From Anaerolineae bacterium (GTDB lineage: Bacteria; Chloroflexota; Anaerolineae; 4572-78; J111), in assembly GCA_020433805.1 (NCBI GenBank), contig JAGRBZ010000001.1, forward strand, positions 1 through 64,000: DNA of 64,000 nucleotides, written 5' to 3'. Positions 16,200-54,524 of this stretch are shown here, in pieces (positions within the stretch are counted from its first letter, which is position 1; every line of letters begins with the position of its first letter). A program made the translations under genes and the position numbers. Below the pieces are notes generated by a model that saw only the letters and a list, made by a program, of their open reading frames with translations, was not told where the DNA came from and did not search any database.

Positions 16200-18188
16200 A
16201 TGGTACCGCTTAAAGAGTTTGCCAATTTTATTACTTTAGATGTGGCAAATTTAGCAGCAATTTATGCTCAATTATTAGCTGATAGTAGTGAAGAATATGG
16301 CTCTATTTCATATAATCAACGCATTGTATTGGCTCGTAGAAATTTAAATGCGGTTGTTGATTGCTGCTTGGCAGAAAGTTCAGTTCCTCTCCTTAAATTT
16401 TTTGATTCTAAAAATAATATAAGCAAGGTCTCCTATCAACCAAATAATACCTCTGTTAAAAGTGCTTTGCACGAAATAGAGTGTTTGGGGCAAACCTTAA
16501 CGCCTGTAGTTACCAGTTTAGAAGCCGGAAAGTTTTTTTGGAAACTGCTAGCTGATGCTCGTACGGTTATTGTAAAATCTCTTGAAACCCCCTTATCTCC
16601 TCAAAATGCTATTTATACGCAAGATACTACTCAGACTAAAGTATCAGAGCCGGACGTGACTGATCTGGCTCTAAAAACTTCTCTGCAGAAAGACGATCGG
16701 CTGTCAATTGCTATCAGTAATGCCGCAATCGGTGTTGTTATTACCGATCCGCACCTGCCTGATAATCCACTTATTTACGTTAATCCCGCTTTCACTCGGA
16801 TTACCGGTTACTCCGCAGAAGAGGCCATCGGTCTAAACTGTCGTTTTTTGCAAGGGCCGGATACCGATGCGTTATCTATTGCTACAATTAGAAAAGCAAT
16901 TAAAAACGAAAAATCCTGTTCAGTTGTTGTGCTCAATTATCGTAAGGATGGAACACCTTTTTGGAATGAAATAACCATTAACCCGGTTTTTGATGAAGAT
17001 AATAAATTAATAAGTTTTATAGGCATCCAGACAGATGTGACGGCCCGGCATCACGCTGAGGATGCCCTGTTAAGACGGGCCTCGGAACTGGAAACTGTAG
17101 CGCAGGTTAGCATTGCTACCTCAACGATTTTAGATGTAGACCAACTTTTGCAAGAGGTGGTTGATTTAACCAAAAAGCGCTTTAACCTCTACCACGTTCA
17201 TATTTATGTTTTTGATGAAAAAGAGGGTGACCTGAATCTCACGGCGGGTGCTGGGGATGTAGGGCGAACTATGATAAAACAAGGTTGGCAAATTCCTATT
17301 GATCGTGAGGATTCGCTTGTAGCACGTGCCGCCCGTAACCGGCAACCCATTATTGTCAATGATGTTAGTAAGGAGCCGGGGTTTTTACCCAACCCCTTAT
17401 TGCCCAATACGCATTCGGAAATGACAGTACCGATGATTGTCGGCGATAAGTTTTTGGGGGTACTGGATGTGCAGTCTGACCAAGTGGGGCGATTTACCAA
17501 AGATATCGCTCAGATAAAAACAACGCTTGCTTCCCAAATTGCTGTGGCCCTACAAAATGCAATTCAATATCAAGAAACGCAAAAAGCCTTGATAGAGATG
17601 GAAAACTCGCAGGATCTGTTACGTACCGTCATTGATGCGACTCCAGACTGGATATTTATTAAAGATCGTGAGCATCGCTATCGACTGGCTAACAAAGGTT
17701 ACTCAGACAGTATCAACATACCAATTGACGAGTTGATCGGTAAGAATGATTTGGAAGTTGGTTTTCCAGAAGATATTGTCAAAGGAAATCCAGAAAAAGG
17801 GATTGTAGGTTTTTGGCCGGACGACGACGAAGTCATGGCTAGCGGGCAGATTAAATTTATCGATGTTGAACCCGCTGAAATAGATGGTAAGCATTTGTAT
17901 CTTAGCACAGTTAAGGCCCCAGTTCGTAACGCCGAGGGCGATATTTGGGGTGTATTAGGCTATGTGCGTGATATTACCGAGCGTGAGCAACTTCTATCTC
18001 AAGTTCAATTTCGTGCCCGTCGCGAACAGACTCTCCGTGAGATTGCCGAAAAGATGCGTACTGCGACGAGCTTGGAAAATCTGGTGAAAGTGACTGCTGA
18101 GGAGTTGGGGCGGAGTTTCTCGGCCGATTATGTCCTGATTGATTTGGATAACGATCCGCCTGGCGAAAACTTGAACCGTGGTAATTGA
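16200..18188 (+). CDS. LOV-GAF-PAS sensor without output domain
   Basis: 662-aa soluble protein and first gene of the array. Residues 1-125 form a helical domain also found in the 20430 gene. A canonical LOV domain follows (about 172-285): GLNCRFLQGPDTD with the flavin-adduct cysteine Cys214, NYRKDGTPFWNE, and the glutamine in FIGIQTDVT. Then come GAF (about 290-460), PAS (475-600) and the C-terminal GAF-stub tail (605-655). No HisKA, GGDEF, EAL or HTH is present. The LOV signature predicts FMN binding and blue-light response. The ATG at 16200 follows GAAGGAG. The next gene begins 27 bp downstream, so co-transcription is likely. How it signals is unknown; partner binding through GAF surfaces is my inference. 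Confidence 0.9.
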   Translation: MVPLKEFANFITLDVANLAAIYAQLLADSSEEYGSISYNQRIVLARRNLNAVVDCCLAESSVPLLKFFDSKNNISKVSYQPNNTSVKSALHEIECLGQTLTPVVTSLEAGKFFWKLLADARTVIVKSLETPLSPQNAIYTQDTTQTKVSEPDVTDLALKTSLQKDDRLSIAISNAAIGVVITDPHLPDNPLIYVNPAFTRITGYSAEEAIGLNCRFLQGPDTDALSIATIRKAIKNEKSCSVVVLNYRKDGTPFWNEITINPVFDEDNKLISFIGIQTDVTARHHAEDALLRRASELETVAQVSIATSTILDVDQLLQEVVDLTKKRFNLYHVHIYVFDEKEGDLNLTAGAGDVGRTMIKQGWQIPIDREDSLVARAARNRQPIIVNDVSKEPGFLPNPLLPNTHSEMTVPMIVGDKFLGVLDVQSDQVGRFTKDIAQIKTTLASQIAVALQNAIQYQETQKALIEMENSQDLLRTVIDATPDWIFIKDREHRYRLANKGYSDSINIPIDELIGKNDLEVGFPEDIVKGNPEKGIVGFWPDDDEVMASGQIKFIDVEPAEIDGKHLYLSTVKAPVRNAEGDIWGVLGYVRDITEREQLLSQVQFRARREQTLREIAEKMRTATSLENLVKVTAEELGRSFSADYVLIDLDNDPPGENLNRGN

Positions 18189-18214
18189 GAATGGGAAATA
18201 GGAGAAGGGTTTAG

Positions 18215-20437
18215 ATGCAACGACTACTTTCCGGTAGTTTAAGAGTTCGCCTGACAATACTAGTTTTATTAGTTGTTACTGTCCCTATAGTATTGGTTAT
18301 TTTGATTACCAGTTACACCGTTAGTCAAGATTTGCGGGAGGAAGCAGAGCGAGACCTTAGACAAAGCGCTGAGGATTTAACGGATAGAGTATCGAGTTGG
18401 GATCAACAATTAACGTTAGCGCTCCGTAACCTGAGCAAGCAACCCGATATCGTTAGCATGGACGCTGATCGTCAAAAACCGGTTTTGTCTCAAATGGCCA
18501 GCGTCTATTCAAACCTGTATTTAGTTCATACAACCGATGAGACAGGTTTTAATATTGCACGAAATGATGATGAAGAACTTCGATATTACGGTGATCGTTC
18601 CTGGTTTAAGGAAGCGATAGTCGGCAATGAGTTTGCCCGCCAAACATTGATTGGGCGTACTACAGACGAACCTGCAATTTGTGTCGGTTCACCAATTCGA
18701 GATGAACAAGCTCAAAATCTTGGCGTGGTGAGTGTTTGTACCGATCTCGATGTTTTGACCGAGCAGATTGGGGCCACACGATTGGACAATACAGGTTTTG
18801 CATTCTTACTGAACGAGTCAAACCAGGTATTAGCCCATCCCAATGAGGCATATGCTAAAGACCTAGAAGATCTTAGCGACGATCTGCTGGTAAAACAAGC
18901 GCGGTCCGGACAACATGAGTTCAGTACATTTGTAGATGAAAATGGCACACGATGGTTGTTTTCCGCTCTTTCTCTTGATAATGATTGGATGGTCATTGTT
19001 CAACAAGAGGAAGCAGAAGTGTTGGCGCGAGTACGCACCCTTCAATTTGGCGCTTTAGGGTTAACGATATTGTTGATCTTAACACTTGCCGGTCTCATGT
19101 GGTGGGTAGCTGGTTATTTCGTAAATCCAATTGTCCGTTTGACCGACGCCGCAAAAAGTTTAAGTACAGGGCAGTTACGTCAGATTGAAACCGATCAACG
19201 CCGTGATGAAGTTGGCGTTTTAACGAACACCTTCAATGAAATGGCTCAACAACTCAACCATTTAATTGACAGCTTGGAGCATAGGGTAGCTAGTCGGACT
19301 CAACGTCTAGAAACGGTTGCTGCTATTAGCGAGCGCTTGAATAGCATCCTCAATTTTGAAGAATTGCTGGCTGCTATCGTTACTGAGGTTCAAGATAAAT
19401 TTGGCTACTATCATGCCCATATTTATCTTTTGGATGATAGCGGTGAGCGCTTAGTTGTAGCCGAAGGAACCGGGTCGGCCGGCAAGAAGATGAAAATGAG
19501 CGGTCACAATATACAACTCAACGCCGAAACAAGTTTGGTGGCACGTGCCGCTCGAACTGGCGAAATTGTTTGGGTTGACAACGTCCGTGAGACTCCAGAT
19601 TGGTTACCTAACGAACTGTTGCCCAATACCTATTCGGAAATGGCTGTTCCAATTGTGCTTGATGGACAAGTTGTAGGGGTTTTGGATGTGCAGTCAGACC
19701 AAATTAACGGGTTAGATGATGGTGACGCCAACGTACTGCGGTCTCTAGCCAACCAGGTAACCGTAGCTCTTCGTAACGCCCGCCTCTTTGAAAAAGTAGA
19801 AACTGCTCTGGCTGAAGCACATGAAGCGCAACGCCGTTACCAGCAAGAAGCGTGGCAAAAGGTGCGAAAGAGCCGTGGTACCCGCCGATACGTATTCACT
19901 CGCCCTGGTGTACAGCTCGATAAAACAGAAAAGGAGCGCCTCGATACTATTAAGCCTCAACAGCTAGCTAAAGATGGTTCAACCTTGGTTGATGTAAATA
20001 CGGGCCAATCTACCGGGCAAGCTATTACAGCTCCAATTAACCTGGGTGATTTAATGATTGGAAAATTGCAACTGCAAACGACCAGAGAGAATAGACAAAC
20101 TTGGTCGGATGAGGATTTATATCTTATTGAGGACATCTTAAATCAGTTTGTCCAAACCGCCGAGACTTTGCGTCTCTTTGATGAAACTCGTAAAAATGCC
20201 AGTCGAGAGACCACTATCCGCACGGTGACTGATAAACTCCGAGCCGCTCCCAGCCTGGATCGTTTATTAGAAATTGCTACTACAGAGATTAGTCAACTGT
20301 TCTCGGTAAACTATGCTGAGTTGGAGTTAGGTGCAGAAGGCCACTCTGGTAATGATAATGTTAACGGCTCCAATGGCACTCATTCCGTTGGTCCAATCCC
20401 TCCCATCCATCTAAAAGGAGATAACCAGGATGGATAA
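18215..20437 (+). CDS. membrane Cache-HAMP-GAF sensor without output domain
   Basis: 740-aa membrane sensor. TM1 (about 13-33) precedes a large extracytoplasmic dCache_1-like domain (34-275) with the typical YGDRSWFKEAIVG and GFAFLLNESNQVLAHPNE segments. TM2 (about 277-302) and HAMP (306-360, ending DEVGVLTNTFNEMAQQL) lead to a GAF domain (370-540), a divergent second GAF of the kind repeated in this array (560-670, with APINLGDLMIGKLQL), and the GAF-stub tail (675-725). dCache domains usually bind small metabolites such as amino acids or organic acids. There is no catalytic or methyl-accepting domain. Its last 8 bases overlap the next start (ATGGATAA), indicating translational coupling. Confidence 0.9.
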   Translation: MQRLLSGSLRVRLTILVLLVVTVPIVLVILITSYTVSQDLREEAERDLRQSAEDLTDRVSSWDQQLTLALRNLSKQPDIVSMDADRQKPVLSQMASVYSNLYLVHTTDETGFNIARNDDEELRYYGDRSWFKEAIVGNEFARQTLIGRTTDEPAICVGSPIRDEQAQNLGVVSVCTDLDVLTEQIGATRLDNTGFAFLLNESNQVLAHPNEAYAKDLEDLSDDLLVKQARSGQHEFSTFVDENGTRWLFSALSLDNDWMVIVQQEEAEVLARVRTLQFGALGLTILLILTLAGLMWWVAGYFVNPIVRLTDAAKSLSTGQLRQIETDQRRDEVGVLTNTFNEMAQQLNHLIDSLEHRVASRTQRLETVAAISERLNSILNFEELLAAIVTEVQDKFGYYHAHIYLLDDSGERLVVAEGTGSAGKKMKMSGHNIQLNAETSLVARAARTGEIVWVDNVRETPDWLPNELLPNTYSEMAVPIVLDGQVVGVLDVQSDQINGLDDGDANVLRSLANQVTVALRNARLFEKVETALAEAHEAQRRYQQEAWQKVRKSRGTRRYVFTRPGVQLDKTEKERLDTIKPQQLAKDGSTLVDVNTGQSTGQAITAPINLGDLMIGKLQLQTTRENRQTWSDEDLYLIEDILNQFVQTAETLRLFDETRKNASRETTIRTVTDKLRAAPSLDRLLEIATTEISQLFSVNYAELELGAEGHSGNDNVNGSNGTHSVGPIPPIHLKGDNQDG

Positions 20438-23400
20438 AATTGCAGTAACTATCAGATCACACCATGATAGCTTGATCGAGGCGTATAATCAGCATTTGCA
20501 GGCCATAAGCGGTGCTGTACTTCTGCCCAAGCAAGCCAGCGTTGAGATGGTTAGCCAGATGATGAAGCATCTGGCAGATACCACAGAAGTTGGCGATGAC
20601 ACCGAGTTTACTCAACGCTGGGTGGCTGACGCTTTGGCCGAAGGAATTGCTCCTGCAACTTTGCAAACGAATTTGACGGCGCTTGAACAAACCCTCATGC
20701 CTCTGGCGACCACGCTTGAAATAGCTACATTTTTATGGCAAATGTTCGCCCAGATGCGTGTTGAGGTTATAGCACAGACTGCCAAACAACCTTCATCCTT
20801 AATAGATGAACGATTAGATGAGGTCTTGAATATTGCTCAAGCGGCCTACTGGGAATTTGATATCGACACCCAAACTTTCACCTTTAACGATCAATTTTAC
20901 AGCTTATTCCATACCAGTGCTGCTCAAGAAGGCGGGTATGATATACCCGTTCAGACTTTTGCCGAAAAATTTGTGCACCACGAAGACATCCCCTTTGTCA
21001 CCGCAGCATTTCAAGGAGTCATAGAAACGACAGATCCCCACTTTTTATATGAGCGAGATTTTCGCGTAATCCGCGTTAATGGCGAACAGCGAATCCACTT
21101 GGTGAGATTTAGGGCCAAAAGAGATGAGCAGGGGCAGATTATCAAAATTGTGGGGACTACACAAGATATTACCGAGCAAAAACGAGCAGAGCAACAATTA
21201 CGCGACAACGAAGCTCGGCTGGCAGATGCGACCAACATCGCCAAGTTGTATTATTGGGAAATTGATTTTGCCACTGGGGAGATCATTGTTTCGCCGGAGT
21301 ATTACAAATTTTTGGGGATTGAGGATGACGGTATTTACAGGATGCCGGTTGAGGAATATGCCAAGACGTATGTTCATCCTGACTATGCTCCTTTGGTTAA
21401 GCAAGTCATTCAAGATGGGCTGGCCAGCACTGAAAAGGAGTCTTATAGAGAGCTGGAGAGCCGTTTGATCGCCACCGATGGCCGCGAGATACCGATTTTG
21501 GTTCGATTCAGGCTAGTAAGGGATGAGGCTGGTAACCCAATTAAGCTCATTGGTGCCAACCAAATCATTATTGAGCAGAAAGCGGCAGAAGCTGAATTAC
21601 GGAAGCGGGCCTCAGAATTGGCAGCCGTATCAGAGATTAGTACGCAAATAGGTCAGATTAGCGATCCGATAGAGATGTTGCAGCAAGTGGCCGATTTGAC
21701 TAAAAAGCGCTTTGATTTGTACCACGCTCACATTTATCTACTGGATGAGGCTGGAGAAACGCTAAACTTGGTCGCCGGAGCTGATGAAGCGGGGCGCACA
21801 ATGGTGGCGGAGGGGTGGAGTATCCCCTTTGGACACGAGAGTTCACTCGTGGCACTAACGGCTCGCAAACAAACCGGTACGATTGTGAATGATGTGCAGG
21901 CCAGCCCAGACTTTCTGCCGAATCCCCTGCTACCGAACACGCGCTCAGAAATGGCCGTGCCGATTTTGGTGAGTAAAAAGCTGCTAGGGGTGCTTGATGT
22001 GCAGGGGGATGTTGTAGGTCGTTTTACGGAACAAGACATCCAAATAGAAACAACGCTAGCCTCACAAGTGGCGATTGCGCTACAGAATGCCCGTCAATAT
22101 CAGCAAACGCAAGAAGCGCTGGGGGAGTTGAGGCAGTCTGAAGAGGTGCTGCGAGAGAGCGAGACGCGACTGTCTCAAGCAACAGCCGCTGCAAAATTGT
22201 ATGAATGGGAGCTTGATTTTGCCACGCAGACATTTACATTTTCACCGGAGTATTACAAACTGCTGAATATTCCGATAACAGACGAGACCGACTTTAAGAT
22301 GCCGGTAGAAGAGTATGCCCAGAAATACGTTAAAAACCCGGAGGTTGTTGGTCGGGAAGTTGAGAGAGTATTGGCTTCGACAGAAAGTAATTATAGTCAG
22401 GAAATCGAGGACTATAACATAACCACCGATGGGCGACTCATACCGATTATGGTGCGGTTTAGGGTCGTCAGAGACAAGGATGGTAACCCAATTAGGTCAG
22501 TTGGGGCCAACCAAGACATCACCGAGCAAAAACGGATCCAGGAAATTCTCGCCAAACAGGCTGGTGATTTGCAAAAAGTCGCTGAAATCAGCACTAGAAT
22601 AGCCACGACCCATAATGAAGCACAACTCCTGCAAGAGGTGGTTGATTTAACCAAGGAGCGCATTGGCTTATACCATGCCCATTTGTATTTGCTGGATGAA
22701 CGCGGTGAAACATTAGTGCTTACCGCCGGATCCGGAGAAGTAGGGCAAGCGATGGTGGCCGAAGGGCGAAGCATTCCTTTTAATCACCCCCGTTCCATTG
22801 TAGCACTAACATCTCGAACTGGTGAAGGAACTATTGTTAATAACGTGCATGAAAATCCTGATTTCTTGCCTCATCCCCTTTTACCGAAAACCCGCTCAGA
22901 GATGGCCGTGCCGATGATAGTGGGTGACCAGTTGTTGGGGGTATTTGATGTTCAAGCAGATGAAGTTGATCGCTTTACTGAAGATGACCGGCAGATCTTA
23001 ACGACACTGGCTGCCCAAGTGGCCGTTGCTTTGGAAAACGCACGTCTCTTCGCTCAGGTTGAGCGTGCTCTATCCGATGTGAAAATTGTCCAGCAGCAAT
23101 ACATTCAACAAGCCTGGGACAAAGCCGATCAGACCCAAAAACGAAACTATCGCTATGAGCGATCCGGGTTTGCGCCGCTGGCAGAGGAAATTAGACAAAA
23201 GGCCAAAGATTTGGCGCGTCAGAAAAAAGAACCGGCGCTGGTTACACTCGCCTCGGATACAGAGGAGAGTCGTCAAAAATCTGTGGTTGCTCCGGTTAGC
23301 TTGAGTGGGGCCATCATTGGTTCTCTGCAATTACATCTCGCTGAAGGACAGAATGAAGGCCAAACTCTGGACGAAGACGATCTGGCTTTGTTAGAAATCA

Positions 23401-23657
23401 TTCTGGATCAGGTAGCCCAAGCCGCCGAAAACCTGCGGCTTTTTGATGAAACCCGTCGGCAAGCCAATTACGAACGCCTGGCTGGAGAAATTACGCATAA
23501 AATCCGGCAAGCGCCCAGCTTTGAGATGTTGGCTCAGACAGCGGCTGAAGCACTGTGTGAAGTGTTGGATGTCCCTGCCGGATTGGTAAGTTTGAATGTG
23601 ACATCATCTCAGGGAACGGAGAAGATTGGCACTAATGGTCAGACCAAAAGGCGCTAA
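20430..23657 (+). CDS. PAS-PAS-GAF-PAS-GAF-GAF sensor without output domain
   Basis: 1075-aa soluble protein. Order: helical N-terminal domain (1-115, related to that of the 16200 gene), PAS (128-253), PAS (258-387), GAF (392-558), PAS (573-703), GAF (708-873), divergent GAF (883-1007) and GAF-stub tail (1010-1067). The three PAS domains are of the PAS_3 fold (YWEFDIDT, YYWEID, YEWELDFAT openings) and resemble each other, as do the two full GAFs (shared NPLLPNTRSEMAVP-type loop), so the protein grew by internal duplication. No enzyme domain is present. The start overlaps the stop of the membrane sensor upstream, so the two are probably made in equal amounts and could assemble together. Confidence 0.9.
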   Translation: MDKIAVTIRSHHDSLIEAYNQHLQAISGAVLLPKQASVEMVSQMMKHLADTTEVGDDTEFTQRWVADALAEGIAPATLQTNLTALEQTLMPLATTLEIATFLWQMFAQMRVEVIAQTAKQPSSLIDERLDEVLNIAQAAYWEFDIDTQTFTFNDQFYSLFHTSAAQEGGYDIPVQTFAEKFVHHEDIPFVTAAFQGVIETTDPHFLYERDFRVIRVNGEQRIHLVRFRAKRDEQGQIIKIVGTTQDITEQKRAEQQLRDNEARLADATNIAKLYYWEIDFATGEIIVSPEYYKFLGIEDDGIYRMPVEEYAKTYVHPDYAPLVKQVIQDGLASTEKESYRELESRLIATDGREIPILVRFRLVRDEAGNPIKLIGANQIIIEQKAAEAELRKRASELAAVSEISTQIGQISDPIEMLQQVADLTKKRFDLYHAHIYLLDEAGETLNLVAGADEAGRTMVAEGWSIPFGHESSLVALTARKQTGTIVNDVQASPDFLPNPLLPNTRSEMAVPILVSKKLLGVLDVQGDVVGRFTEQDIQIETTLASQVAIALQNARQYQQTQEALGELRQSEEVLRESETRLSQATAAAKLYEWELDFATQTFTFSPEYYKLLNIPITDETDFKMPVEEYAQKYVKNPEVVGREVERVLASTESNYSQEIEDYNITTDGRLIPIMVRFRVVRDKDGNPIRSVGANQDITEQKRIQEILAKQAGDLQKVAEISTRIATTHNEAQLLQEVVDLTKERIGLYHAHLYLLDERGETLVLTAGSGEVGQAMVAEGRSIPFNHPRSIVALTSRTGEGTIVNNVHENPDFLPHPLLPKTRSEMAVPMIVGDQLLGVFDVQADEVDRFTEDDRQILTTLAAQVAVALENARLFAQVERALSDVKIVQQQYIQQAWDKADQTQKRNYRYERSGFAPLAEEIRQKAKDLARQKKEPALVTLASDTEESRQKSVVAPVSLSGAIIGSLQLHLAEGQNEGQTLDEDDLALLEIILDQVAQAAENLRLFDETRRQANYERLAGEITHKIRQAPSFEMLAQTAAEALCEVLDVPAGLVSLNVTSSQGTEKIGTNGQTKRR

Positions 23658-23792
23658 ATAGTAAGAGAGGCGCTTTAAATAAGCTTTGAAAGTAGATGAA
23701 TTTTTTATGATCGCCTTTAAATATACGACGTGTTTAAATGATAAAATTTATTATTGATGTTGCATTAACTCTATCTTCGGAAAGGAAAACTC

Positions 23793-25358
23793 TTGAACCT
23801 GAAACAACCTTTTAACCTTATCTCTTGCCGAAGGGATACGGTAAGAATAACATCACTTAATCAAAATGCCACTCTGCTAAGCGTTTTTTTGATTATAATT
23901 TTCTTGTTGACTGCTTGTACAGGAGTGGCAGCCAGTTCCGTTTCCCAACCCACTGAGGTGGTTAATAATCCGGTTGCATCACAAGACTCCTCCAGTATAA
24001 GCTTCCTGGCCGAGGCAGCCCAACCCTATCGCGACATTGTTCTCCACGGTGTTACTGAGGATACCCCGGCCTCAGACTACGTTAAAGCTGTATTAGCCCC
24101 GGCATTTGAAGAGGAAACCGGTATTAAGATTGAGTTGGAGATAGTTCCTTGGGCTGATATGTATAGCAAAACCATTGAGGATATGGAAGCAAACTCGGGT
24201 ACGTATGACTTTGTCTACATTGAGCAGGATATTATTTATGCCTTCCTGGAGCAAAACTTCCTCGTTAATCTAACTCAAATGTTGGACCATAATCCCAATC
24301 TGGCTTCACCCGATTTTAAGCCGATTGATTTCACGACTTTCATCGAGGAGTTTAAAGACCCCGCTACGGGTGATCTCTACGGGGTGCCCATGGAGGCCTT
24401 TTTGAAGACTTATGTATACCGTAAGGACTTATTTGAGGATCTGTCCATTCAGGAAGCCTTTGCTACCGAATATGGCTATCCATTAGGTCCGGCGGTGACG
24501 TTTGACCAATACCACGACATTGCCGTATTTTTCACCCAGTACGGTCAGGACAATGATATGGAATTATGGGGCAGCACGGTGCAGGCAGCTAATGACCATC
24601 CTGCTTCATTCTATGAATTTAGTGAGACGATTTTACCCACTTTTGGAGTCTACAACTGGGGTATTAATCCGGATAATTACAAAGCTACCGTGGATAATAG
24701 CGGTCAGTTAAACAGCGAGCAAGCCAAGAACGCGCTTACCTTTTGGTTAGATTTGCTTCAGTATGCACCTCCAGAGTCTACTCGCAGCACTTGGACGGAA
24801 ACGGCTAAGACCTTTGCCGCCGGTCGAGTGGCTCAGGGGTGGATTTATGGAGAGAATGTGGCCTGGATTGCCACAGACCCCACTCGCTCTGAGATAGTGG
24901 GTAAAGTGGGTGTGGCGCTGCCGCCCACCACGCAGGGGGTTATTCAAGATGCCAGTATTGGTAAAGGCTACGTTGGTTACTACGATGGTGGTGCTTTTGG
25001 TATACCTTACTCTTCCAAAAAGCAAGAGGCTGCCTTACTCTGGCTACAATATATTAGCCAAGCCGACGTCCAACCGGAGTGGGCAGCCGCCAGTTCTCGC
25101 GTTGTTCAACTTGGTACCTTCGATGATCCACTAGTGCTGGAGCAGGACAAAAAAGTCGGCGGTTACTTTTCTTTAATGAAAAAAGAGGGGCGTCTCTATA
25201 GGGGGGCGCCGCCTTTTCCATTTCATTCCCAGATTCGTGATCTTGTTGCTTCTTATCTTTATCTAGCTATTGACGGTAAATTAACCCCGGAAGAAGCTCT
25301 GGATCAAGCGGCAACGGCGGTTGATGAAGAATTGGTTAAGTTAGGCTATGGGAAGTAG
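23793..25358 (+). CDS. ABC-type solute-binding lipoprotein (family 1, sugar type)
   Basis: 521-aa extracellular binding protein of the family 1 fold. The N-terminal signal has a hydrophobic stretch and lipobox LLTAC, giving an acylated Cys42. The mature part shows typical features: [48 protein letters not shown] and [22 protein letters not shown]. The start is a TTG with AAAGGA about seven bases upstream. No permease or ATPase gene is adjacent, which is unusual for an importer component. Its position inside the sensor array suggests that it presents a ligand (sugar or polyol by family) to one of the membrane sensors, or feeds a transporter encoded elsewhere. Confidence 0.9.
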
Positions 25359-25503
25359 TGGAAAATTTTATTGCAAGGTTTGAGCGTAGAAGTAGCAATA
25401 AGTTGAAAGATTTTGTGAGCGAGGGTCGGAGTGTACCCTATCCAACCTTCAGGCTTTTAGCTCTCCAACTGTAGTTTGAGTAAATAACTTATGAGAAATT
25501 ACT

Positions 25504-30127: not shown

Positions 30128-30240
30128 TTGTAACCGCATAGCACATTTATTGTATTGTAGAAGTTTGCAGGAGAATATGACAGAAAAGTGGTTGATAATC
30201 AAATATCAATAAGTTTAGGTTTCAATCACAGGAGCAGTTG

Positions 30241-37553: not shown

Positions 37554-37580
37554 CGTAATTGCTGTTAGGTGAGCACGTTT

Positions 37581-45831: not shown

Positions 45832-45848
45832 AATTGTGAGAATTATTT

Positions 45849-47879
45849 ATGTCTGAAGAAAAAGTTGAGGCTCAATCCGGCTCACCTTATCGAGCCGACC
45901 CCCAAATAGCTGGTGAACAGATGACGGTAGAACTGCCTGAATTTGAAAGCGCAAATAAAACAATGCCTAATGGACTAACAGTTAGACAAAAGCTATTAGT
46001 AGCCATAGGTATTATTGGCCTTACTCTGCTCGTTGTTGCTATAACAGGCCGCTCATTGGTGATATCTTTAGCCGGTGAGTTTGAGGTTTTGGCTGCAGAG
46101 ACACTTGAGGAAGAGAGAGTTATTAGTCAACTTATAAAAAGCAGCCTTGCTCTGTTAAACGAAACACGTGAGTATTCGATTGAACGAAATGAAGCGACAT
46201 TGGAGCAGATTGCAAACGCCAATGGAGATCTTACAACTGCATTGCAAAGTTATGGTGCTTTAGATAATTTGCAGCGTGAATTCGAAGATCAGCCACTATC
46301 AGAAAGTCTTTTTGAGGAGATCGGAGAAGATGTAAGTCAGTTACAAAGCAAATCTGAAGAGATTGTTTTGTTGCTTGATTCGGGCAATACTGATGACGAA
46401 GAATTAGAAGAAGCTTTTGAAGCGCTGGAAGATGCTGAAATAAATTTGGGACTTCGTTTGGAACAAGCTGAAGAGACATTGCAAAAAGATATGTTCACGA
46501 GGATAAATGAGATCGGAAGCCAAATAGATATGGCAGAATTGTTGATCATATTCCTGCCCTTATTGGCCTTTTGTGTATTCCTGGGGATTTTCTATTTCCT
46601 TAATCGCTCAATTGTACATCGATTGACAGCACTTGAAGCTGTTACGCAGCGTATTTCAGCGGGAGAATTAAACATATCAGCAAATGTTGATAGTCGGGAT
46701 GAAATTGGTAAATTGGCTTACGCTTTCAATATTATGACAGATAGGTTGCGAGGGCTAGTCGGAAATTTGGAAGAAAAAGTTGCAGAGCGCACATATCAGC
46801 TTGAAACCGTTGTTGAAGTTTCCCAAAAGCTAAGTAGTATTTTAGATTTATCGGATCTGATGCATGAAGTTGTTTATCTTACTAAAGAAACCTTTAATTA
46901 TTACCACGTTCATATTTATCTACTCGATGAATTAGGTGAGAGTCTGGTTATGGTTGAGGGCTATGGGGAGGCCGGTGCCGAGATGAAGAAACGAGGGCAC
47001 AGCATTTTACTGGCTGCCCCAAGAAGCCTGGTAGCCCGAGCGGCTCGTGAAGGAAATATTATTAGTATTGACAATGTGCGTAAGAATCCTCATTGGTTGC
47101 CTAATCCGCTCTTGCCGGAAACACGCTCGGAGGCTGCTGTTCCTATTTATTTAGGTAGTGAAATTGTTGGAGTACTTGATGTGCAAAGTGACCATATTGC
47201 TGGTATCACTCCAGCAAGCCAAAGAATTTTAAGAGCGCTTGCCAGTCAAATCGCTACTGCCGTAGGAAACTCTCGTCTTTTTTCAAGGACTCAGGCAGCA
47301 TTAGTTAAAACAGAACGTTTGCAGAGTCTCTATACGGGCGATGCTTGGCAAAGATTAACGAAAAGCATAAACTCAAATTTTGAAATTAATCGATCTGGTT
47401 CGCTGCCACCATTGTCGGAAAAGTTTACGCCGGAAGCAGAAGCGGCTCTTCAGCAAAGACAAACGATAAACTTGAAATTAAATAATTTAGATGAGCAGAA
47501 GAATGAGCAAGATGTGGGAGAGGCGTTTAATGAAAAGGCGCACAGCATAGCCACGCCACTTATGCTTCGAAACCAAATCATAGGGGTTCTTGGACTTCAA
47601 GATAATAATCCCAATAGACGATGGACAAGTGAAGAAATAGCACTTATTGAAGCAGTTTCGGAACAAATGAGTTTAGCTCTTGAGAATGCTCGATTGTTTG
47701 AAGAAACAAGCCGCAGAGCGAGTCGAGAGCGGCTTGTCGCGGATGTGACCCAACAAGTTTGGTCAGCAGATGAGATAGAAGCGGTAATGCGGGCAGCCGT
47801 GACCGAGTTAGGCGAAAAGTTGCAAGCATCAGAAGTGATAATTCGTCTGGGGACAGAAGCGGATTCGGTATCCTTCTAA
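45849..47879 (+). CDS. membrane helical-bundle-HAMP-GAF sensor without output domain (second)
   Basis: 676-aa membrane sensor. A 49-residue cytoplasmic leader precedes TM1 (50-72), an acidic, leucine-rich helical ectodomain (73-225), TM2 (230-252), HAMP (253-308; DEIGKLAYAFNIMTDRL), GAF (315-478; NPLLPETRSEAAVPIYL), divergent GAF (488-618) and GAF-stub tail (619-672). The ectodomain is about half the size of that in the 25504 sensor, fitting a single four-helix bundle. It sits 17 bp after the giant sensor and 27 bp before the small membrane peptide that precedes the kinase. Confidence 0.88.
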   Translation: MSEEKVEAQSGSPYRADPQIAGEQMTVELPEFESANKTMPNGLTVRQKLLVAIGIIGLTLLVVAITGRSLVISLAGEFEVLAAETLEEERVISQLIKSSLALLNETREYSIERNEATLEQIANANGDLTTALQSYGALDNLQREFEDQPLSESLFEEIGEDVSQLQSKSEEIVLLLDSGNTDDEELEEAFEALEDAEINLGLRLEQAEETLQKDMFTRINEIGSQIDMAELLIIFLPLLAFCVFLGIFYFLNRSIVHRLTALEAVTQRISAGELNISANVDSRDEIGKLAYAFNIMTDRLRGLVGNLEEKVAERTYQLETVVEVSQKLSSILDLSDLMHEVVYLTKETFNYYHVHIYLLDELGESLVMVEGYGEAGAEMKKRGHSILLAAPRSLVARAAREGNIISIDNVRKNPHWLPNPLLPETRSEAAVPIYLGSEIVGVLDVQSDHIAGITPASQRILRALASQIATAVGNSRLFSRTQAALVKTERLQSLYTGDAWQRLTKSINSNFEINRSGSLPPLSEKFTPEAEAALQQRQTINLKLNNLDEQKNEQDVGEAFNEKAHSIATPLMLRNQIIGVLGLQDNNPNRRWTSEEIALIEAVSEQMSLALENARLFEETSRRASRERLVADVTQQVWSADEIEAVMRAAVTELGEKLQASEVIIRLGTEADSVSF

Positions 47880-47906
47880 AATGAGCTCATTAAGGAAACA
47901 ATAGTA

Positions 47907-48146
47907 ATGGATAAATTGAAAGCATTGTTTAGACACCCAGAGTTTCATGGGCTTTTCTTGTTTATTAGTGTATTGCTGTTTGTTTACCCCCTATTAATTG
48001 TATTAAATCACGGTGGGACAGCAATCGTGCTTCTTTCTTTCTTTTTTCCATGGGCACTTATCATCTTGATGTTATTTGCGGTGAGCAGGAGCTATACTCC
48101 CGAAGAGAACGAGGATGTGCAAAACGGAAGGACAGACGATGTTTAA
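47907..48146 (+). CDS. small two-helix membrane protein upstream of the transporter kinase
   Basis: 79-aa protein with two predicted membrane helices (about residues 15-35 and 41-62) and a short acidic tail. The ATG follows AAGGAAACAATA. Its last 8 bases overlap the kinase start (ATGTTTAA), so translation of the two is coupled. Small membrane proteins beside SSF-type transporters and kinases are known as accessory subunits, but I do not recognise this one by sequence. A role in assembly or gating of the transporter domain is inferred from the overlap. Confidence 0.75.
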   Translation: MDKLKALFRHPEFHGLFLFISVLLFVYPLLIVLNHGGTAIVLLSFFFPWALIILMLFAVSRSYTPEENEDVQNGRTDDV

Positions 48147-51100
48147 CTCCTGGCTTGTGCTCTCATTGATTGGTTTGTATGTGGGGATTTTGTTCGTGGT
48201 TGCTTTGTGGATCGAGCGCGGATCACCTCAAGGTAGACGCTTTGCTGAAAACCCCTGGATCTACTCCTTTGCCCTGGCTGTTTACTGTACCTCATGGACT
48301 TTCTATGGTAGTGTTGGTAGCGCGGCTAGCTCTGGCATGCTATTCCTTACCATCTACCTGGGACCGACCTTGGCTATCATTCTGTGGTGGTTTGGCCTTC
48401 GTAAATTAGTTCGGATAAAATCAACCCAGCGCATCACGAGTATAGCTGACTTTATTTCGGCTCGATACGGCAAATCTCAATCATTAGCAGCTATCGCGTC
48501 TTTGATTGCCATCACTGGTGCTACGCCGTATATTGCGCTACAGTTGAAAGCTATTACAACGACTTTTCCCCTTGTCACTGATCCAAGCGTTTCATCAACT
48601 ACCTGGATTAGCAACAACGTAGGGCCGATAGTCGTTGCCTTGATGATTATTTTTACCATCCTCTTTGGCGTTAGGCGTCTTGACCCTACCGAGCGTCACC
48701 AAGGTGTGGTGATGGCACTAGCCATCGAAAGTGTTGTCAAATTAATTGCTTTTCTAGCAGCCGGTATTTTTGTTACGTTCTTTTTGTACGATGGATTTGG
48801 CGATCTTCTTAATCAATTGGCGGTTAGCCCTTTTCATGATATGGTCGGCCGTGGCGGCCAAGACGTTTCTTCCTATTTGACCTGGATGAGTTATCTTGTT
48901 CTGGCTATGTCAGCTATTATGTTCTTGCCTCGTCAGTTTCACGTCGCCGTAATAGAGAATTCAAATGAGAAGAACATCCGAACTGCTATGTGGCTCTTTC
49001 CCTTATATCTGTTTCTGATCAATATTTTCGTTGTTCCTATTGCTGCTGGGGGATTGTTGCAAGGATATTCGGCTCAAGAAGCTGACACCTTTGTTCTTAC
49101 TTTACCACTACAGTACGGCCAACCCTGGCTGGCCTTACTGGTATTCATTGGCGGCTTTTCTGCAGCTACAGGGATGGTTATTGTTAGTGCGATGACATTG
49201 GCCACCATGTTCACCAACCATCTCTTGCTCCCTGTTATTGAGCAAGTTGGTCAGTTAAGTTTTATGCGTCAGTATCTACTGCAAGCGCGATGGCTGGCTG
49301 TAGCAGCAATTTTGATCACCAGTTATCTGTTCGAGCAAACAATCGGTGAGTCCTATACCCTAGTTAATATGGGGATTATCTCTTTTGCTGCGGTGCTTCA
49401 ATTTGCCCCTAGTATCGTGGGGGGCCTCTATTGGCGGCGAGCTAATAAGATGGGAGCGGTTTTAGGGTTAGTTAGTGGATTTTTGATTTGGTTTTATACA
49501 CTGCTGTTACCATCTTTTATTAAGAGTGGATGGTTCTCTACTACCCTATTAGATGAAGGCCCTTGGGGTATTGCCCTTCTTAATCCGGAGCAGCTTTTCG
49601 GTTTGGTTGGTCTGGCTCCCGTAGCGCATACGGTTTTTTGGACGATGCTATTCAACGTCAGCTTATTTATTGTTTGTTCGCTCTATTTTGAGCAGTCTGA
49701 GGAAGAGAAACGCGCAACAGACACATTTGTTGATGCTATAGCTGTGACGAAACGCTTTGCACCACATTCCGTTGGAATACCAAATATTGATCTAGCCAGT
49801 AAGCTTGAGATAATCAAAGCTTTATTAAGCCAATATCTCTCCCCGTCAGAAGTTACTGCTATGATCGAGAAGTCTCTCATTGCAACAGAGCTTAAAGGGA
49901 AAACGAAAGCTACTGTTATCGAATTGGCCAATCTAAGCGGTGAAGTAGAGAGATATCTGGCTGGCTCTATTGGAGCGGCTGTTGCATATCAAAGTTTCCG
50001 ACGCATTGAACTATTTAGCCAGCAAGAGGCAAGCTATCTATTACGATCATATAATGAAATACTCGCTGACCTAAGAATATCACCTCACGAGTTACGAGAG
50101 AGAATAAACTACTATCGCGAGCGAGATACATTGATAGCCGAGCAAGCCACGGTCTTAGAAAGAAGAATAGCAGAGCGGACACGCGTTCTTGAAGTTAGTG
50201 CAAAAATAAGCCGACAGCTAACCTCTATTTTGAATCTTAGTGAATTGCTACAGCTTTCGGTTGATTTGCTTCAAGAAGAATTTAATTATTATCATGCTCA
50301 TATCTACTTAGTTGATGAAGAAACTGGTGACTTGGTGATAGCGGAAGGCACTGGTAAGGTAGCTCAAAAACTTAAGGCCAAGGGACATCGGTTGGAAGAT
50401 GGTCTAGGCATTGTCGGCACGGTGGCAAGCACAAAGAAGGCCTTCAAGAGCAACAACGTCGACAAGATGCTAAATTTTGTTCGTAACCCGCTGTTGCCTG
50501 ATACTAAGTCAGAGTTGGCGATACCTTTGCTCAAAGGAAACCAGGTTTTGGGGGTGCTCGATATTCAAAGTGAGGAACTAGACCGATTTTCTGATGAAGA
50601 TGTAATTATGATGCAATCTGTTGCAAACCAAATTGCTATCGCAGTTGATAACGCGCGTTTGTTGAGCCAGTTTCAAACAGCCCTGCAGGAGGTCGAACGC
50701 CTCAACCGTCGCCTAACCCGCGAGGGTTGGGAGCAGGCCGTGGATAGGGTTTCAACCGTGGGGTATCGATACAACCGAGGAGCGAGCACAGCTCTTACCT
50801 CAACCTCAGATGCTTGGTTGTCTCCTATGAAAGAAGCCGCTGCCAAAAAAGCTTTAGTTAAGCACTCTCGGCCAGGTAACGGCCATCCGTCGGAGGTTGA
50901 GCTCGCTGTGCCATTAATTTTGAGAAATGAAGTTATTGGCATGTTAGGCGTCAAGCGGGAGGAAACGTCAGATTGGGTCGAGGAAGAAGTATCGGCTGTC
51001 GAGGCCGTCGCTGACCAAGTCTCTAGGGCCTTAGAAAATGCCAGATTGGCTAAAGAGCAGGAAAGAACGATTGAGCAGCTTAAAGAAGTTGACCGTCTGA

Positions 51101-51825
51101 AGTCAGAATTTTTGACGAGTATGAGTCACGAACTCCGTACCCCCTTAAATTCAATCATCGGTTTTGCTGATGTTTTATTACAAGGGATCGATGGTGACCT
51201 GCCGGACATGGCTACCAACGACATCAGATTAATTCATAATAGTGGTCAACACCTTCTTGCTTTAATCAACGATATTCTCGATTTGTCTAAAATTGAGGCT
51301 GGCAAAATGGAGTTGGTTCGTGAGCCGCTCGACATAAGCGAGTCGATTAACGATGTGCTGGCAGCATCCAATTCGTTGGTTAAAGATAAACCTGTAGAAA
51401 TCTTAGTCGATAGCACCAGCGAACTTCCCCTTGTTTACGCTGACAAACTGCGCCTCAACCAAATTTTGCTCAACTTGGTGAGTAATGCTGCTAAATTTAC
51501 CCATGAAGGGTCAATTACAATAAAGGCACGTTTAGATGACAAAAATCCGGATAGAATGCGTGTTGGCGTTATTGATACGGGTATCGGCATTCCCAAAGAT
51601 AAACAGCGTTCTATCTTTGACCGATTTCGACAGGCTGATGGTACAACGACTAGAAAATATGGCGGAACCGGTTTAGGGTTAGCTATTTCGATGAACTTGA
51701 CGGAAATGCACGGCGGTGAGCTTCAAGTCAAAAGTGAAGTCGACGTCGGCTCGGAATTTTATTTTACTATTCCCCTGGCGGACACTATTTCTGAGCAAAC
51801 CGACGTGAGTATTGTTGAAAATTAA
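48139..51825 (+). CDS. SLC5/SSF transporter-like histidine kinase (SSF-STAC-GAF-GAF-HisKA-HATPase)
   Basis: About 1228 residues; the only kinase in the array. Residues 1-518 form a 12-13 helix sodium:solute symporter domain (WTFYGSVGSAASSG near the start, GGFSAATGMVIVSAMT in the middle). A helical segment (544-651) ending LAGSIGAAVAYQSF looks like a STAC domain, which links SLC5 domains to kinases such as CbrA. Then GAF (681-845), divergent GAF (851-968), HisKA (LTSMSHELRTPLNSIIGFAD, His997) and HATPase_c (LVSNAAKF, DTGIGIP, GGTGLGLAIS). The GAF pair matches the array sensors, but the kinase replaces their GAF-stub tail. ATG 48139 has GGAAGGA upstream; the ATG at 48115 lies inside the previous gene. 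Confidence 0.92.
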   Translation: MFNSWLVLSLIGLYVGILFVVALWIERGSPQGRRFAENPWIYSFALAVYCTSWTFYGSVGSAASSGMLFLTIYLGPTLAIILWWFGLRKLVRIKSTQRITSIADFISARYGKSQSLAAIASLIAITGATPYIALQLKAITTTFPLVTDPSVSSTTWISNNVGPIVVALMIIFTILFGVRRLDPTERHQGVVMALAIESVVKLIAFLAAGIFVTFFLYDGFGDLLNQLAVSPFHDMVGRGGQDVSSYLTWMSYLVLAMSAIMFLPRQFHVAVIENSNEKNIRTAMWLFPLYLFLINIFVVPIAAGGLLQGYSAQEADTFVLTLPLQYGQPWLALLVFIGGFSAATGMVIVSAMTLATMFTNHLLLPVIEQVGQLSFMRQYLLQARWLAVAAILITSYLFEQTIGESYTLVNMGIISFAAVLQFAPSIVGGLYWRRANKMGAVLGLVSGFLIWFYTLLLPSFIKSGWFSTTLLDEGPWGIALLNPEQLFGLVGLAPVAHTVFWTMLFNVSLFIVCSLYFEQSEEEKRATDTFVDAIAVTKRFAPHSVGIPNIDLASKLEIIKALLSQYLSPSEVTAMIEKSLIATELKGKTKATVIELANLSGEVERYLAGSIGAAVAYQSFRRIELFSQQEASYLLRSYNEILADLRISPHELRERINYYRERDTLIAEQATVLERRIAERTRVLEVSAKISRQLTSILNLSELLQLSVDLLQEEFNYYHAHIYLVDEETGDLVIAEGTGKVAQKLKAKGHRLEDGLGIVGTVASTKKAFKSNNVDKMLNFVRNPLLPDTKSELAIPLLKGNQVLGVLDIQSEELDRFSDEDVIMMQSVANQIAIAVDNARLLSQFQTALQEVERLNRRLTREGWEQAVDRVSTVGYRYNRGASTALTSTSDAWLSPMKEAAAKKALVKHSRPGNGHPSEVELAVPLILRNEVIGMLGVKREETSDWVEEEVSAVEAVADQVSRALENARLAKEQERTIEQLKEVDRLKSEFLTSMSHELRTPLNSIIGFADVLLQGIDGDLPDMATNDIRLIHNSGQHLLALINDILDLSKIEAGKMELVREPLDISESINDVLAASNSLVKDKPVEILVDSTSELPLVYADKLRLNQILLNLVSNAAKFTHEGSITIKARLDDKNPDRMRVGVIDTGIGIPKDKQRSIFDRFRQADGTTTRKYGGTGLGLAISMNLTEMHGGELQVKSEVDVGSEFYFTIPLADTISEQTDVSIVEN

Positions 51826-51865
51826 TCAATCAATTTATGAATTTTTAGAAGATTAATTAGGGATA

Positions 51866-54010
51866 ATGAAATCTTATATTACTAAAGTTCAATGTTTGGA
51901 ATGCCAACATGAAATGTCGTTTTATCCGGGCTTAGATAAATGCCCCAATTGCAACGGAGTGTGGTTAGATGCTCAGTATGATTACGACAAGGTTGCTAAA
52001 ATTTGGCAAAACGGGATAGATAGACGTGGTTATTCTTTGTGGCGTTATATAGAACTGCTACCTGTTCTCGATACCGAACACCTCAACACAATGGGCGAAG
52101 GTTATACACCATTAACTCGCGCTACAAAGATCCAAAACAGATTGAGCCATCCATCTATTTTTATTAAGGACGAGCGTCAATCGCCGACAAGTTCCTTCAA
52201 AGATAGGCAAGCTGCTGTAGCAACTACAGCTATGAAGCAGGCTAATATTCAGGAATGTGTTTTAGCCTCAACTGGTAATGCAGCCGCTGCATATGCCTCT
52301 TATTGTGCTCGAGCGGATATTAAACTTTGGATATTCTTAACAAGTATGGTGCCCGCTGCAAAAATGCGCGAGGCAGCCTTATATGGGGCAGAGGTTGTTA
52401 AAGTAGCTGGTACGTATGATCAGGCCAAAAAAGTCGCTGCTGATTTTGCTGCTCATCGAGGTATTCACTTTGATAAAGGGGCCAAGGCTATTCCCGGTAA
52501 GGAAAGTATGAAAACCGTAGCTTTTGAAATAGCTGAGGAATTGGCCCGTCAGAAGGGTTTTCAAACTCCGTGGCAAGCGCCGGACTGGTATATTCAGGCG
52601 GTTAGCGGTGGGATTGGTCCCATTGGTGTGCAAAAAGGCTTTGAAGAGTTGTTCAAAATGGGCCTAATTGATCGAGTTCCCAAAATTGGTGTTGTCCAAG
52701 TTGCTGGGTGTTCGCCTATGGTTCGGGCTTATTCGGCTGGTAAGCCCACCGCCGCTCCGGTAGTACCAGAAACGCGTATTACGGTGTTATCGACCGGAGC
52801 ACCGGGGTTAGGTTATGAGTTGCTTTTCAAAGCCAACCAAACTTATGGGGGGCATATGTTAAGTGTAACCGACGAAGAAGCCTTTGAGTCGATGCGTTTG
52901 TTAGCTCAAACGGAAGGTTACTCAGTGGAACCGGCTACGGCTGTCGCTTTTGCCGGGTTAGATAAATTGGTTACACAAGGTATCATTAAATCCGATGAAA
53001 CGGTTGTTGTTAATTGCTCGGGGCATACGTTCCCCGTAGAAAAGCATATTATGGACGAGGAGAACCTGTTAGATGTGCAACTGTCAGGCTCTAAGGAAGC
53101 GTCGGCAAGTGTTCCTCTCGATGGTCTAGGCGCAGCACTCAAGCGTTTAGATGAACAGGTCACCACAATTGTTGTCATTGATGACAATCCTATGGATAGC
53201 CGTCTTATTCGTAGATTATTACAAGCTAAGAAACCTTACCGCGTATTTGAAGCAAATACAGCGTTGGAAGGTTTAAAGATAATTAGAGATCGCTTACCCG
53301 ATCTCGTTGTTAGCGATCTAACAATGCCGGAAATGGATGGCTTTGCCTTGTTGCAAGAGCTGAAAAGCGATCCTTTAACGGCGAATATTCCTGTCATTGT
53401 TGTATCTGCTAAAGATTTAACGAAGGATGATGAACAGCGACTGGCCGGGCAAACCTCGTCGGTTTGGATGAAAGGTTCTTTTTCTACCAAAGACCTTGTG
53501 GAACATGTTGTTGATACTTTATCAGGCACGATACCAGAGCAACCCGTTGAGCAAAACGAACGAACTAAAACCAAAGAATTGGTGATCCCTCCACCTAGTC
53601 AAGCCGATAATTCAATTGCTGATAAACTTCAATTAAAGAAAGTCGTTTTAATAGAGGATAGCTCTATTGATGCGCGTCTTATTAGCCGGATTTTACAAAT
53701 GAAATTACCGGTATCTATAACTCATGTGACAGATGGTGAAAATGCTATTGAGGTTATAAAAAAGGAAAAACCCCATCTTATTACACTTGATCTAAATATG
53801 CCTGATAAAAGTGGGTATCAAATTTTGGAAGACTTAAAAGATAATGAGGAATTGGATAGTATTCCAGTTATTGTAATCACATCTCAAATTTTATCTGACG
53901 CCGAAAAAGAGTTTTTGACTCGAAATGATGTCCGTTCTGTTTGGCAAAAAGGCGATATAAACCGCGAAAAGTTAATCGCTCATGTTGAGTCTGAGTTGCA
54001 ATATTCATAA
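51866..54010 (+). CDS. threonine-synthase-like PLP enzyme fused to two receiver domains
   Basis: 714 aa. A zinc-ribbon start (Cys10, Cys13, Cys26, Cys29) and fold-type II PLP domain of the threonine synthase type fill residues 1-420: TMGEGYTPLTRA, the PLP lysine Lys112 in SSFKDRQA, the cofactor phosphate loop STGNAAAAYAS and VSGGIGPIGV. Two receivers follow: about 431-550 (VVIDDNPMDSR, VVSDLTMPEMDG, VVSAKD, WMKGSF) and 595-712 (VLIEDSSIDAR, ITLDLNMPDKSG, VITSQ, WQKGD). All key residues appear intact in all three parts. Free threonine synthase converts O-phosphohomoserine to threonine; the actual substrate is uncertain. The gene follows the array kinase by 40 bp, so phospho-control of the enzyme is a strong inference. 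Confidence 0.9.
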   Translation: MKSYITKVQCLECQHEMSFYPGLDKCPNCNGVWLDAQYDYDKVAKIWQNGIDRRGYSLWRYIELLPVLDTEHLNTMGEGYTPLTRATKIQNRLSHPSIFIKDERQSPTSSFKDRQAAVATTAMKQANIQECVLASTGNAAAAYASYCARADIKLWIFLTSMVPAAKMREAALYGAEVVKVAGTYDQAKKVAADFAAHRGIHFDKGAKAIPGKESMKTVAFEIAEELARQKGFQTPWQAPDWYIQAVSGGIGPIGVQKGFEELFKMGLIDRVPKIGVVQVAGCSPMVRAYSAGKPTAAPVVPETRITVLSTGAPGLGYELLFKANQTYGGHMLSVTDEEAFESMRLLAQTEGYSVEPATAVAFAGLDKLVTQGIIKSDETVVVNCSGHTFPVEKHIMDEENLLDVQLSGSKEASASVPLDGLGAALKRLDEQVTTIVVIDDNPMDSRLIRRLLQAKKPYRVFEANTALEGLKIIRDRLPDLVVSDLTMPEMDGFALLQELKSDPLTANIPVIVVSAKDLTKDDEQRLAGQTSSVWMKGSFSTKDLVEHVVDTLSGTIPEQPVEQNERTKTKELVIPPPSQADNSIADKLQLKKVVLIEDSSIDARLISRILQMKLPVSITHVTDGENAIEVIKKEKPHLITLDLNMPDKSGYQILEDLKDNEELDSIPVIVITSQILSDAEKEFLTRNDVRSVWQKGDINREKLIAHVESELQYS

Positions 54011-54143
54011 GAAAATGTAAAAATTAAGAGGTGGGCGCTTAATAAACTAGCACCAAACAGTAAACTCCAAACCCGAACATTCATGAATATGAGAACAACG
54101 ACACCGCTACAATTTACAATTATGCGCTGGGAGGTCTATTGAA

Positions 54144-54524
54144 ATGTTGATTTTGTATGTAGAAGACAATTTTGAAAACAAACTATTTGTCCGGAGGGTC
54201 ATTGAGTCGATGGGCCATGAAATGGTGGAAGCCGAAACAGGTCTCGACAGCTTAATGCTAGCCGAAGAACGAAAACCGGATTTAGTGCTTATGGACGTCA
54301 ATATCCCAGGCATGGATGGTTTGGAAACAACCGCCAAGTTTAGAGAAAGCCCTAATCTAGCCGATATCCCTATTATTGCTCTAACGGCTAACGCTATGAA
54401 AGGGGACAGGGAACGGTGTTTGGCTGCCGGCTGCAATGGGTATATGCAAAAACCTGTTGGTGTTTCTGACTTACGGCGAGAAATAGAGTATTATGCCAAG
54501 CAATCTCAATTAGCAAACGAATAG
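54144..54524 (+). CDS. single-domain response regulator (DivK/CheY-like)
   Basis: 126-aa stand-alone receiver with YVEDNFENK, the phospho-acceptor in LVLMDVNIPGMDG, ALTANAMKGDRERC and the lysine in YMQKPVG. It lacks an output domain. This subtype is typical of phosphotransfer shuttles and of receivers appended to hybrid kinases. It is the last gene before the array terminator, 133 bp after the PLP-receiver fusion. It likely takes phosphate from the transporter kinase, either as shuttle or sink. Confidence 0.88.
   Translation: MLILYVEDNFENKLFVRRVIESMGHEMVEAETGLDSLMLAEERKPDLVLMDVNIPGMDGLETTAKFRESPNLADIPIIALTANAMKGDRERCLAAGCNGYMQKPVGVSDLRREIEYYAKQSQLANE

Follow-up and report, generated by a model that had tools for sequence, protein, structure and literature searches.

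Ten kinase-less receptors with a shared half-GAF C-terminus are encoded beside one histidine kinase and a receiver-fused PLP enzyme in an Anaerolineae bacterium

Most two-component systems have one or few sensors per kinase. The locus described here, from an Anaerolineae bacterium, encodes ten sensors without any recognisable output domain, raising the question of whether they act together, and on what. The window, i.e., the whole 64,000-nucleotide stretch that was analysed, is contig C362 of a 9.8-Mb genome of 1248 contigs, which carries at least 150 HisKA kinases. According to the ORF list, fourteen co-directional genes (+) span 16200-54524 with intergenic gaps of -8 to 235 bp; the initial annotation had counted fifteen genes and gaps of -8 to about 145 bp, of which only the lower limit was borne out. 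The same list places the start of the kinase gene at 48115 instead of 48139. The terminator expected near 54628 was recovered at 54627-54661, identified by eye, its loop exceeding the limit of the terminator scanner. Scans for promoters and terminators inside the array were no better than chance, and searches for RNA families and tRNAs found none. The features are given below, where tail denotes a C-terminal module common to the ten receptors, which were assigned by domain and tail profiles, receptor 4 also having an AF2 model.

12022..14700 (+): bordering histidine kinase, REC-GAF-GAF-GAF-HisKA_3-HATPase (domain search; position kept in G005, G010 and G008)
14730..15422 (+): NarL/LuxR-type response regulator (domain search; conserved position)
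15648..16109 (+): receiver-only protein (domain search; conserved position)
16200..18188 (+): tail receptor 1, LOV-type PAS, GAF, PAS, tail
18215..20437 (+): tail receptor 2, TM-dCache-TM-HAMP-GAF-gafX-tail
20430..23657 (+): tail receptor 3, PAS/GAF repeats, gafX, tail
23793..25358 (+): orphan periplasmic solute-binding lipoprotein, SBP_bac_1 (domain search)
25504..27933 (+): tail receptor 4, TM-CHASE3/4HB-TM-HAMP-GAF-gafX-tail
27938..30127 (+): tail receptor 5, GAF-PAS-GAF-GAF-tail
30238..35319 (+): tail receptor 6, receiver, PAS and GAF repeats, gafX, tail
35325..37553 (+): tail receptor 7, TM-dCache-TM-HAMP-GAF-gafX-tail
37569..39140 (+): tail receptor 8, PAS-PAS-GAF-tail
39217..45831 (+): tail receptor 9, many PAS/GAF including a LOV motif, gafX, tail
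45849..47879 (+): tail receptor 10, TM-4HB-TM-HAMP-GAF-gafX-tail
48115..51825 (+): array kinase, SLC5 symporter-like domain, linker, GAF, gafX, HisKA (51100-51303), HATPase; without tail
51866..54010 (+): PALP-REC-REC, zinc-ribbon, threonine-synthase-like PLP enzyme (PALP 52091-53023), two receivers
54144..54524 (+): stand-alone CheY/DivK-like receiver (domain search)
54627..54661 (+): intrinsic terminator, perfect 12-bp stem, T-rich tail (by eye)

The ten kinase-less PAS/GAF sensors of the initial annotation were confirmed by domain profile search as ten plus-strand genes (523-2204 aa), starting at 16200, 18215, 20430, 25504, 27938, 30238, 35325, 37569, 39217 and 45849, and the four described as membrane proteins (18215, 25504, 35325 and 45849) each have two predicted TM helices. 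Only PAS, GAF, HAMP, Cache and CHASE3/4HB domains were matched, plus one N-terminal receiver (30238), and the LOV motif NCRFLQ is present in 16200 and 39217. The absence of catalytic, methyl-accepting and DNA-binding domains also held, as profile searches of all ten proteins found no hidden catalytic, MCP or HTH domain. The product of 23793 is a lipoprotein and not a sensor, and no permease or ATPase genes for it are present in the array. HisKA and HATPase occur within 16200-54524 only in 48115, in agreement with the single kinase proposed initially; however, a second kinase (12022) adjoins the array, making the expression "single kinase" dependent on the chosen locus boundary. Three receivers were rightly assigned to 51866 and 54144, but the former also encodes a PLP enzyme, so the output had been misread.

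Regarding the surroundings, the receiver gene 15648-16109 ends 90 bp before 16200, and the trio 12022-14730-15648 holds the matching place, immediately 5' of the array, in G005, G010 and G008. Further upstream, a HATPase_c_2 (anti-sigma-type) ATPase gene (11286-11705) has a homologue at the matching place in G010 (C7:341842), and a 551-aa protein with only a weak Baseplate_J match (8984-10639) adjoins an FtsA/PilM-like gene at 7811. On the 3' side of the terminator, two adjacent related membrane proteins (54781-56550 and 56702-57535) have no match in Pfam or NCBIfam; in G005 and G010, the array is followed by a similarly sized gene.

What the sensors have in common was missed by the initial annotation. 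Alignment of their C-termini revealed a module of ~50 residues in 10/10 receptors, with the consensus pattern AxRExxxxIxxKhxxAxxhExxhxxAxxELxxxL, consisting of the first two helices and the strand of a GAF domain, cut off there:

17988..18149 (+): half-GAF tail of receptor 1 (tail profile, E 2e-21)
20168..20332 (+): tail of receptor 2 (tail profile)
23433..23597 (+): tail of receptor 3 (tail profile)
27631..27795 (+): tail of receptor 4 (tail profile; AF2 model)
29939..30100 (+): tail of receptor 5 (tail profile)
35146..35310 (+): tail of receptor 6 (tail profile)
37347..37511 (+): tail of receptor 7 (tail profile)
38925..39089 (+): tail of receptor 8 (tail profile)
45604..45765 (+): tail of receptor 9 (tail profile)
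47688..47852 (+): tail of receptor 10 (tail profile)

In the PDB, the tail profile matched only the N-terminal ~41 residues of GAF domains from histidine kinases and related photoreceptors (best E 2e-10), and, when compared with the profiles of GAF domains from the window itself, aligned with their first ~50 columns; no Pfam model matched the tail alone. As only the N-terminal part of GAF is matched, the tail is the start of such a domain, ending before the ligand pocket; a complete GAF fold with this pocket was not found in it, the match stopping after the first ~50 positions. The preceding element varies, being gafX (a degenerate GAF), a full GAF or a PAS, so that the tail behaves as a separate module. 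The site after gafX is occupied by the tail in the receptors and by HisKA in the array kinase. In the monomeric AF2 model of the 25504 C-terminus (mean pLDDT 77 and about 75-85 in the tail, which is middling), the tail continues the preceding signalling helix and adds a second short helix. Completion of gafX by the tail in cis is disfavoured, since tails also stand behind PAS and full GAF domains and no strand pairing is seen in the model, whereas complementation of gafX by a tail in trans is conceivable; the profile comparison of gafX with GAF aligned flanking residues only, thus being uninformative.

The tail is restricted in its distribution. In 62 proteins from related loci, none of them kinase-bearing, only 2-42 residues separate it from the C-terminus. 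The genome has 12 confident copies, against at least 150 GAF_2 domains: the ten described here and two on contig C1137 beside a paralogous gene for a PLP enzyme fused to a receiver (PALP-REC). In the near-complete relatives G005, G010 and G008, confident tails sit near the two PALP-REC genes, and in these genomes and G050 at most about 35 kb separates them from such a gene. Across the class, tails (E<=1e-7) were detected in 38 of the 43 genomes that have PALP-REC, as opposed to 5 of the 76 that lack it (Fisher p 4e-20, for genomes that share ancestry and are not independent), and in a phylum-wide sample in 22/201 genomes, nearly all of this class. G157, from another class, has a true tail array; the matches in G177 and G276, from other classes, lie inside kinases as GAF starts, are not C-terminal and do not represent arrays. 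At the level of sequence, the shared tail is confined to arrays of this kind. A random-placement probability for the clustering was computed but not counted as evidence, since genes would also cluster through tandem duplication by itself.

The C1137 genes form a second, smaller system of the same kind (G000 C1137:880-20522; L052, L053), comprising tail receptors of 1339 and 1503 aa, a GAF hybrid kinase of 2366 aa that bears two receivers, a PALP-REC gene and a REC-HisKA kinase; this gene set recurs in G005 (C2:738123-756698).

In the relatives, tail sensors are encoded in one-strand runs that terminate in a single GAF histidine kinase, behind which the PALP-REC gene usually stands. The first recognisable gene after the last tail encodes a histidine kinase in 58/62 arrays (about 54/58 arrays with duplicates removed), none of the 62 has a kinase between its first and last tail, and two of the four exceptions (G141 and G206) still reach a kinase, past ORFs of the opposite strand. 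Domain labels of the relatives derive from single-sequence searches with the window's domains, and many of these genomes are fragmented; tail counts per array are thus lower bounds, the window itself scoring 7/10 by this procedure. The conservation of the sensor-kinase neighbourhood, suggested initially as a check, extends to other genera and to another class of the phylum. Additionally, periplasmic binding-protein genes of at least seven Pfam families are interspersed in 23 arrays, with no transporter genes beside them in the arrays read. A ParA/MinD-type ATPase, absent from the window's array, is encoded in 11 arrays, often directly before the kinase; examples from other families are L175:11922-12710 (-), L154:2139-2966 (+) and L133:5406-6254 (+). 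As ParA-like proteins (ParC, PpfA) position chemosensory arrays in Vibrio and Rhodobacter (PMC5706961), this ATPase hints at a positioned complex, in the relatives that carry it only.

Conservation was also evaluated slot by slot. Several receptor slots are reciprocal best hits and collinear in four other genomes, the orthology being less clear for 16200, 20430 and 37569. The last 330 residues of slot counterparts are 42-64% identical, whereas the remainder of the two-TM slots (18215, 25504, 35325 and 45849) is 25-32% identical, close to shuffled sequences (20-28%). In the long PAS/GAF slots 30238 and 39217 the remainder reaches 29-40%, owing in part to the alignment of generic PAS and GAF repeats. 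The kinase follows the same pattern, with a core 60-67% identical between counterparts and inputs only 24-26% identical. As judged from these alignments, the array has been kept slot by slot while its sensing parts turned over.

A cluster built by local tandem duplication, with each sensor working separately and without any joint complex, would also account for the homologous ends of all ten sensors and for the same-genome paralogues 18215 and 25504, which are 50% identical over their C-termini. This explanation is unlikely, since several slots have collinear orthologues in other genera, to which they are more similar than to their neighbours (65% against 32% identity for 35325; 60% against 39% for 45849). 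Moreover, the remainder of this GAF-rich genome lacks tails, save for the C1137 pair, sensors without outputs could not signal alone, and a kinase ends the array in nearly all genomes. Tandem duplication may nevertheless have started the array.

The strong co-occurrence of tails with PALP-REC, usually as neighbours, could instead mean that the tails dock on the enzyme or its receivers and not on the kinase, acting by direct ligand-induced allostery. We regard this as quite unlikely. The arrays of the f12 family, G077, G089 and G058 have no adjoining PALP-REC gene, yet lead into a GAF kinase, and in G089 and G058 no PALP-REC gene was found in the genome at all; conversely, PALP-REC exists without tails. 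These arrays indicate that the kinase is the most constant partner of the tails. Similarly, the tail arrays of one family (G141, G068 and G099) end at a hybrid kinase with no adjoining PALP-REC, hence the enzyme need not be the sole output.

A model in which the array is coupled to the bordering HisKA_3 kinase 12022 and its NarL-type regulator, and would mainly feed transcription, is very unlikely: the trio is conserved upstream in G005, G010 and G008, but most arrays of other families lack it and carry a GAF-HisKA kinase at the 3' end. Finally, that the sensors are decayed, non-functional leftovers of histidine kinases is hardly credible, even though HisKA and HATPase are missing from them and their tail is a truncated GAF, as all ten frames are open, the same truncated end occurs in dozens of genomes and the ends have retained 42-64% identity between genera, in contrast to the diversifying inputs.

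The array kinase 48115 has clear HisKA (E 1.5e-19) and HATPase (E 4.7e-29) domains and is encoded together with receivers in 51866 and 54144, as in two-component systems. Its residues 18-534 match the histidine-kinase chain 10ed_A of the PDB (E 7e-67), and 11 TM helices are predicted; an SLC5 symporter domain is joined here to a HisKA kinase, as in the SLC5/STAC histidine kinases CbrA and CrbS (PMC13022988, PMC9100948). A Pfam search of residues 1-667 up to E 5, in which STAC was looked for, gave only one chance match. Unlike in that family, the kinase slot carries HAMP-linked or other inputs in relatives, so the SLC5 domain is one exchangeable input.

The 51866 product combines an enzyme with two receivers. 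Its residues 76-386 form a PALP domain (Pfam PALP E 2e-64) with a fold match to threonine synthase, ThrC (Foldseek probability 1.00), and the fold, lysine and phosphate-binding motif assign it to PLP fold-type II. The PLP lysine 112, STGN and SGGxG, as well as Asp484 and Lys536 of the first receiver, are kept in 78/78 PALP-REC proteins, and the four zinc-ribbon cysteines are kept across the same set; a second, mostly intact receiver is present in about 45 of the 78. Despite sharing the ThrC fold and PLP motif, PALP-REC proteins differ by their fusion to one or two receivers, and 51866 lies below the curated ThrC cut-offs (PRK08197, 258.2 < 303; TIGR00260, 145 < 167.1 bits). Housekeeping threonine synthesis was considered and rejected as an explanation, because the genome has two other genes that each reach one or both of these cut-offs. 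Close relatives of the gene occur in Anaerolineae (Chloroflexota) records, mostly metagenome-assembled, e.g., Anaerolineales H5_CFX7 and HSG25. In several relatives an EamA-family transporter adjoins PALP-REC (L175:6005-6952 (-); L180:13195-14142 (+)) and in others GNAT acetyltransferases do; neither gene is present in the window's array. At L080-L082, L093 and L097, PALP-REC-REC is accompanied by a lone receiver, with neither tail receptors nor a kinase in the vicinity; the fusion of enzyme and receivers thus extends beyond the arrays. No description of PALP-receiver fusions was found in the open-access texts searched.

Taken together, the locus probably encodes a dedicated two-component system in which many receptors act through one kinase on a PLP enzyme, although the adjacency of the genes could reflect co-regulation only. 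In the many-receptor system, the ten receptors would feed 48115 through inputs that can be exchanged for one another: LOV for light, Cache/4HB domains and the orphan binding protein for extracellular ligands, and GAF/PAS for intracellular cues. Their helical C-termini and tails may let them co-assemble with each other and with the kinase through tail-kinase contact, and the kinase itself contains an SLC5 transporter-like sensor. Signals from ligands, light or transport would be combined and set its autophosphorylation, the phosphate passing to the two receivers of 51866 and to 54144, and receiver phosphorylation would switch the predicted amino-acid-type reaction. For this most likely reading, genomic logic argues for the co-assembly and general two-component knowledge for the later steps. 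The shared receptor complex suggested in the initial annotation came through both the search for hidden catalysis and the comparison with relatives, and the shared C-terminal module and slot-wise conservation strengthen it, although its output had been misread and a second kinase borders the array.

A bolder version, possible though doubtful, is a third, independently built receptor-array machine, unrelated to chemoreceptor arrays and stressosomes, where half-GAF tails would polymerise many kinds of receptor with one kinase, being positioned by ParA in some lineages, and the receiver-switched PLP enzyme would make or consume a small molecule resembling an amino acid, which the neighbouring EamA of some relatives may export.

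Found again in a large bacterial group, the arrangement suggests an undescribed way of funnelling many signals through one kinase onto metabolism. If true, up to a dozen output-less receptors with inputs freely exchanged above a constant C-terminal core, all acting on one kinase, would be a new solution to signal integration in bacteria, and a receiver-fused PLP enzyme a rare case of direct phospho-signalling on a metabolic enzyme. In addition, many proteins otherwise annotated as no more than "GAF domain-containing protein" would gain a function, and the claims can be tested gene by gene. No description of tail receptors, or of such arrays in Chloroflexota, was found in the open-access texts searched.

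Among known systems, the RetS/LadS-GacS multikinase networks have something in common with the proposal. RetS and LadS retain kinase-type domains, whereas the receptors here, up to about a dozen, have none. In those networks other sensors modulate a central kinase by direct contact (PMC5992135, PMC4866733), as would be the case for 48115.

The MCP-CheA/CheW arrays are alike in having many varied inputs, one conserved cytoplasmic end, one histidine kinase and CheY-like receivers, as well as binding-protein partners and, in some arrays of the present kind, ParA-type ATPases (PMC5706961). However, the MCPsignal profile found no MCP signalling domain in the ten receptors, no CheA-type kinase or CheW was detected among the array genes scanned, and 48115 has neither an Hpt nor a CheW-like domain; instead there are a truncated-GAF end, a GAF-HisKA kinase and an enzyme output in place of the motor. 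The stressosome (RsbR paralogues-RsbS-RsbT), where several sensors including the LOV-based YtvA act through one kinase (PMC9765535, PMC6614362), likewise has variable N-termini and a shared C-terminal domain. Meanwhile, the C-termini of the present sensors are half-GAFs with no match to STAS, no RsbS or RsbT gene lies in the array, the sole RsbW/RsbT-like ATPase (11286, HATPase_c_2) being outside it, and, unlike in stressosomes, signalling here involves a histidine kinase with receivers and some receptors are in the membrane. Thus, the array resembles both chemoreceptor arrays and stressosomes in its logic, being a member of neither.
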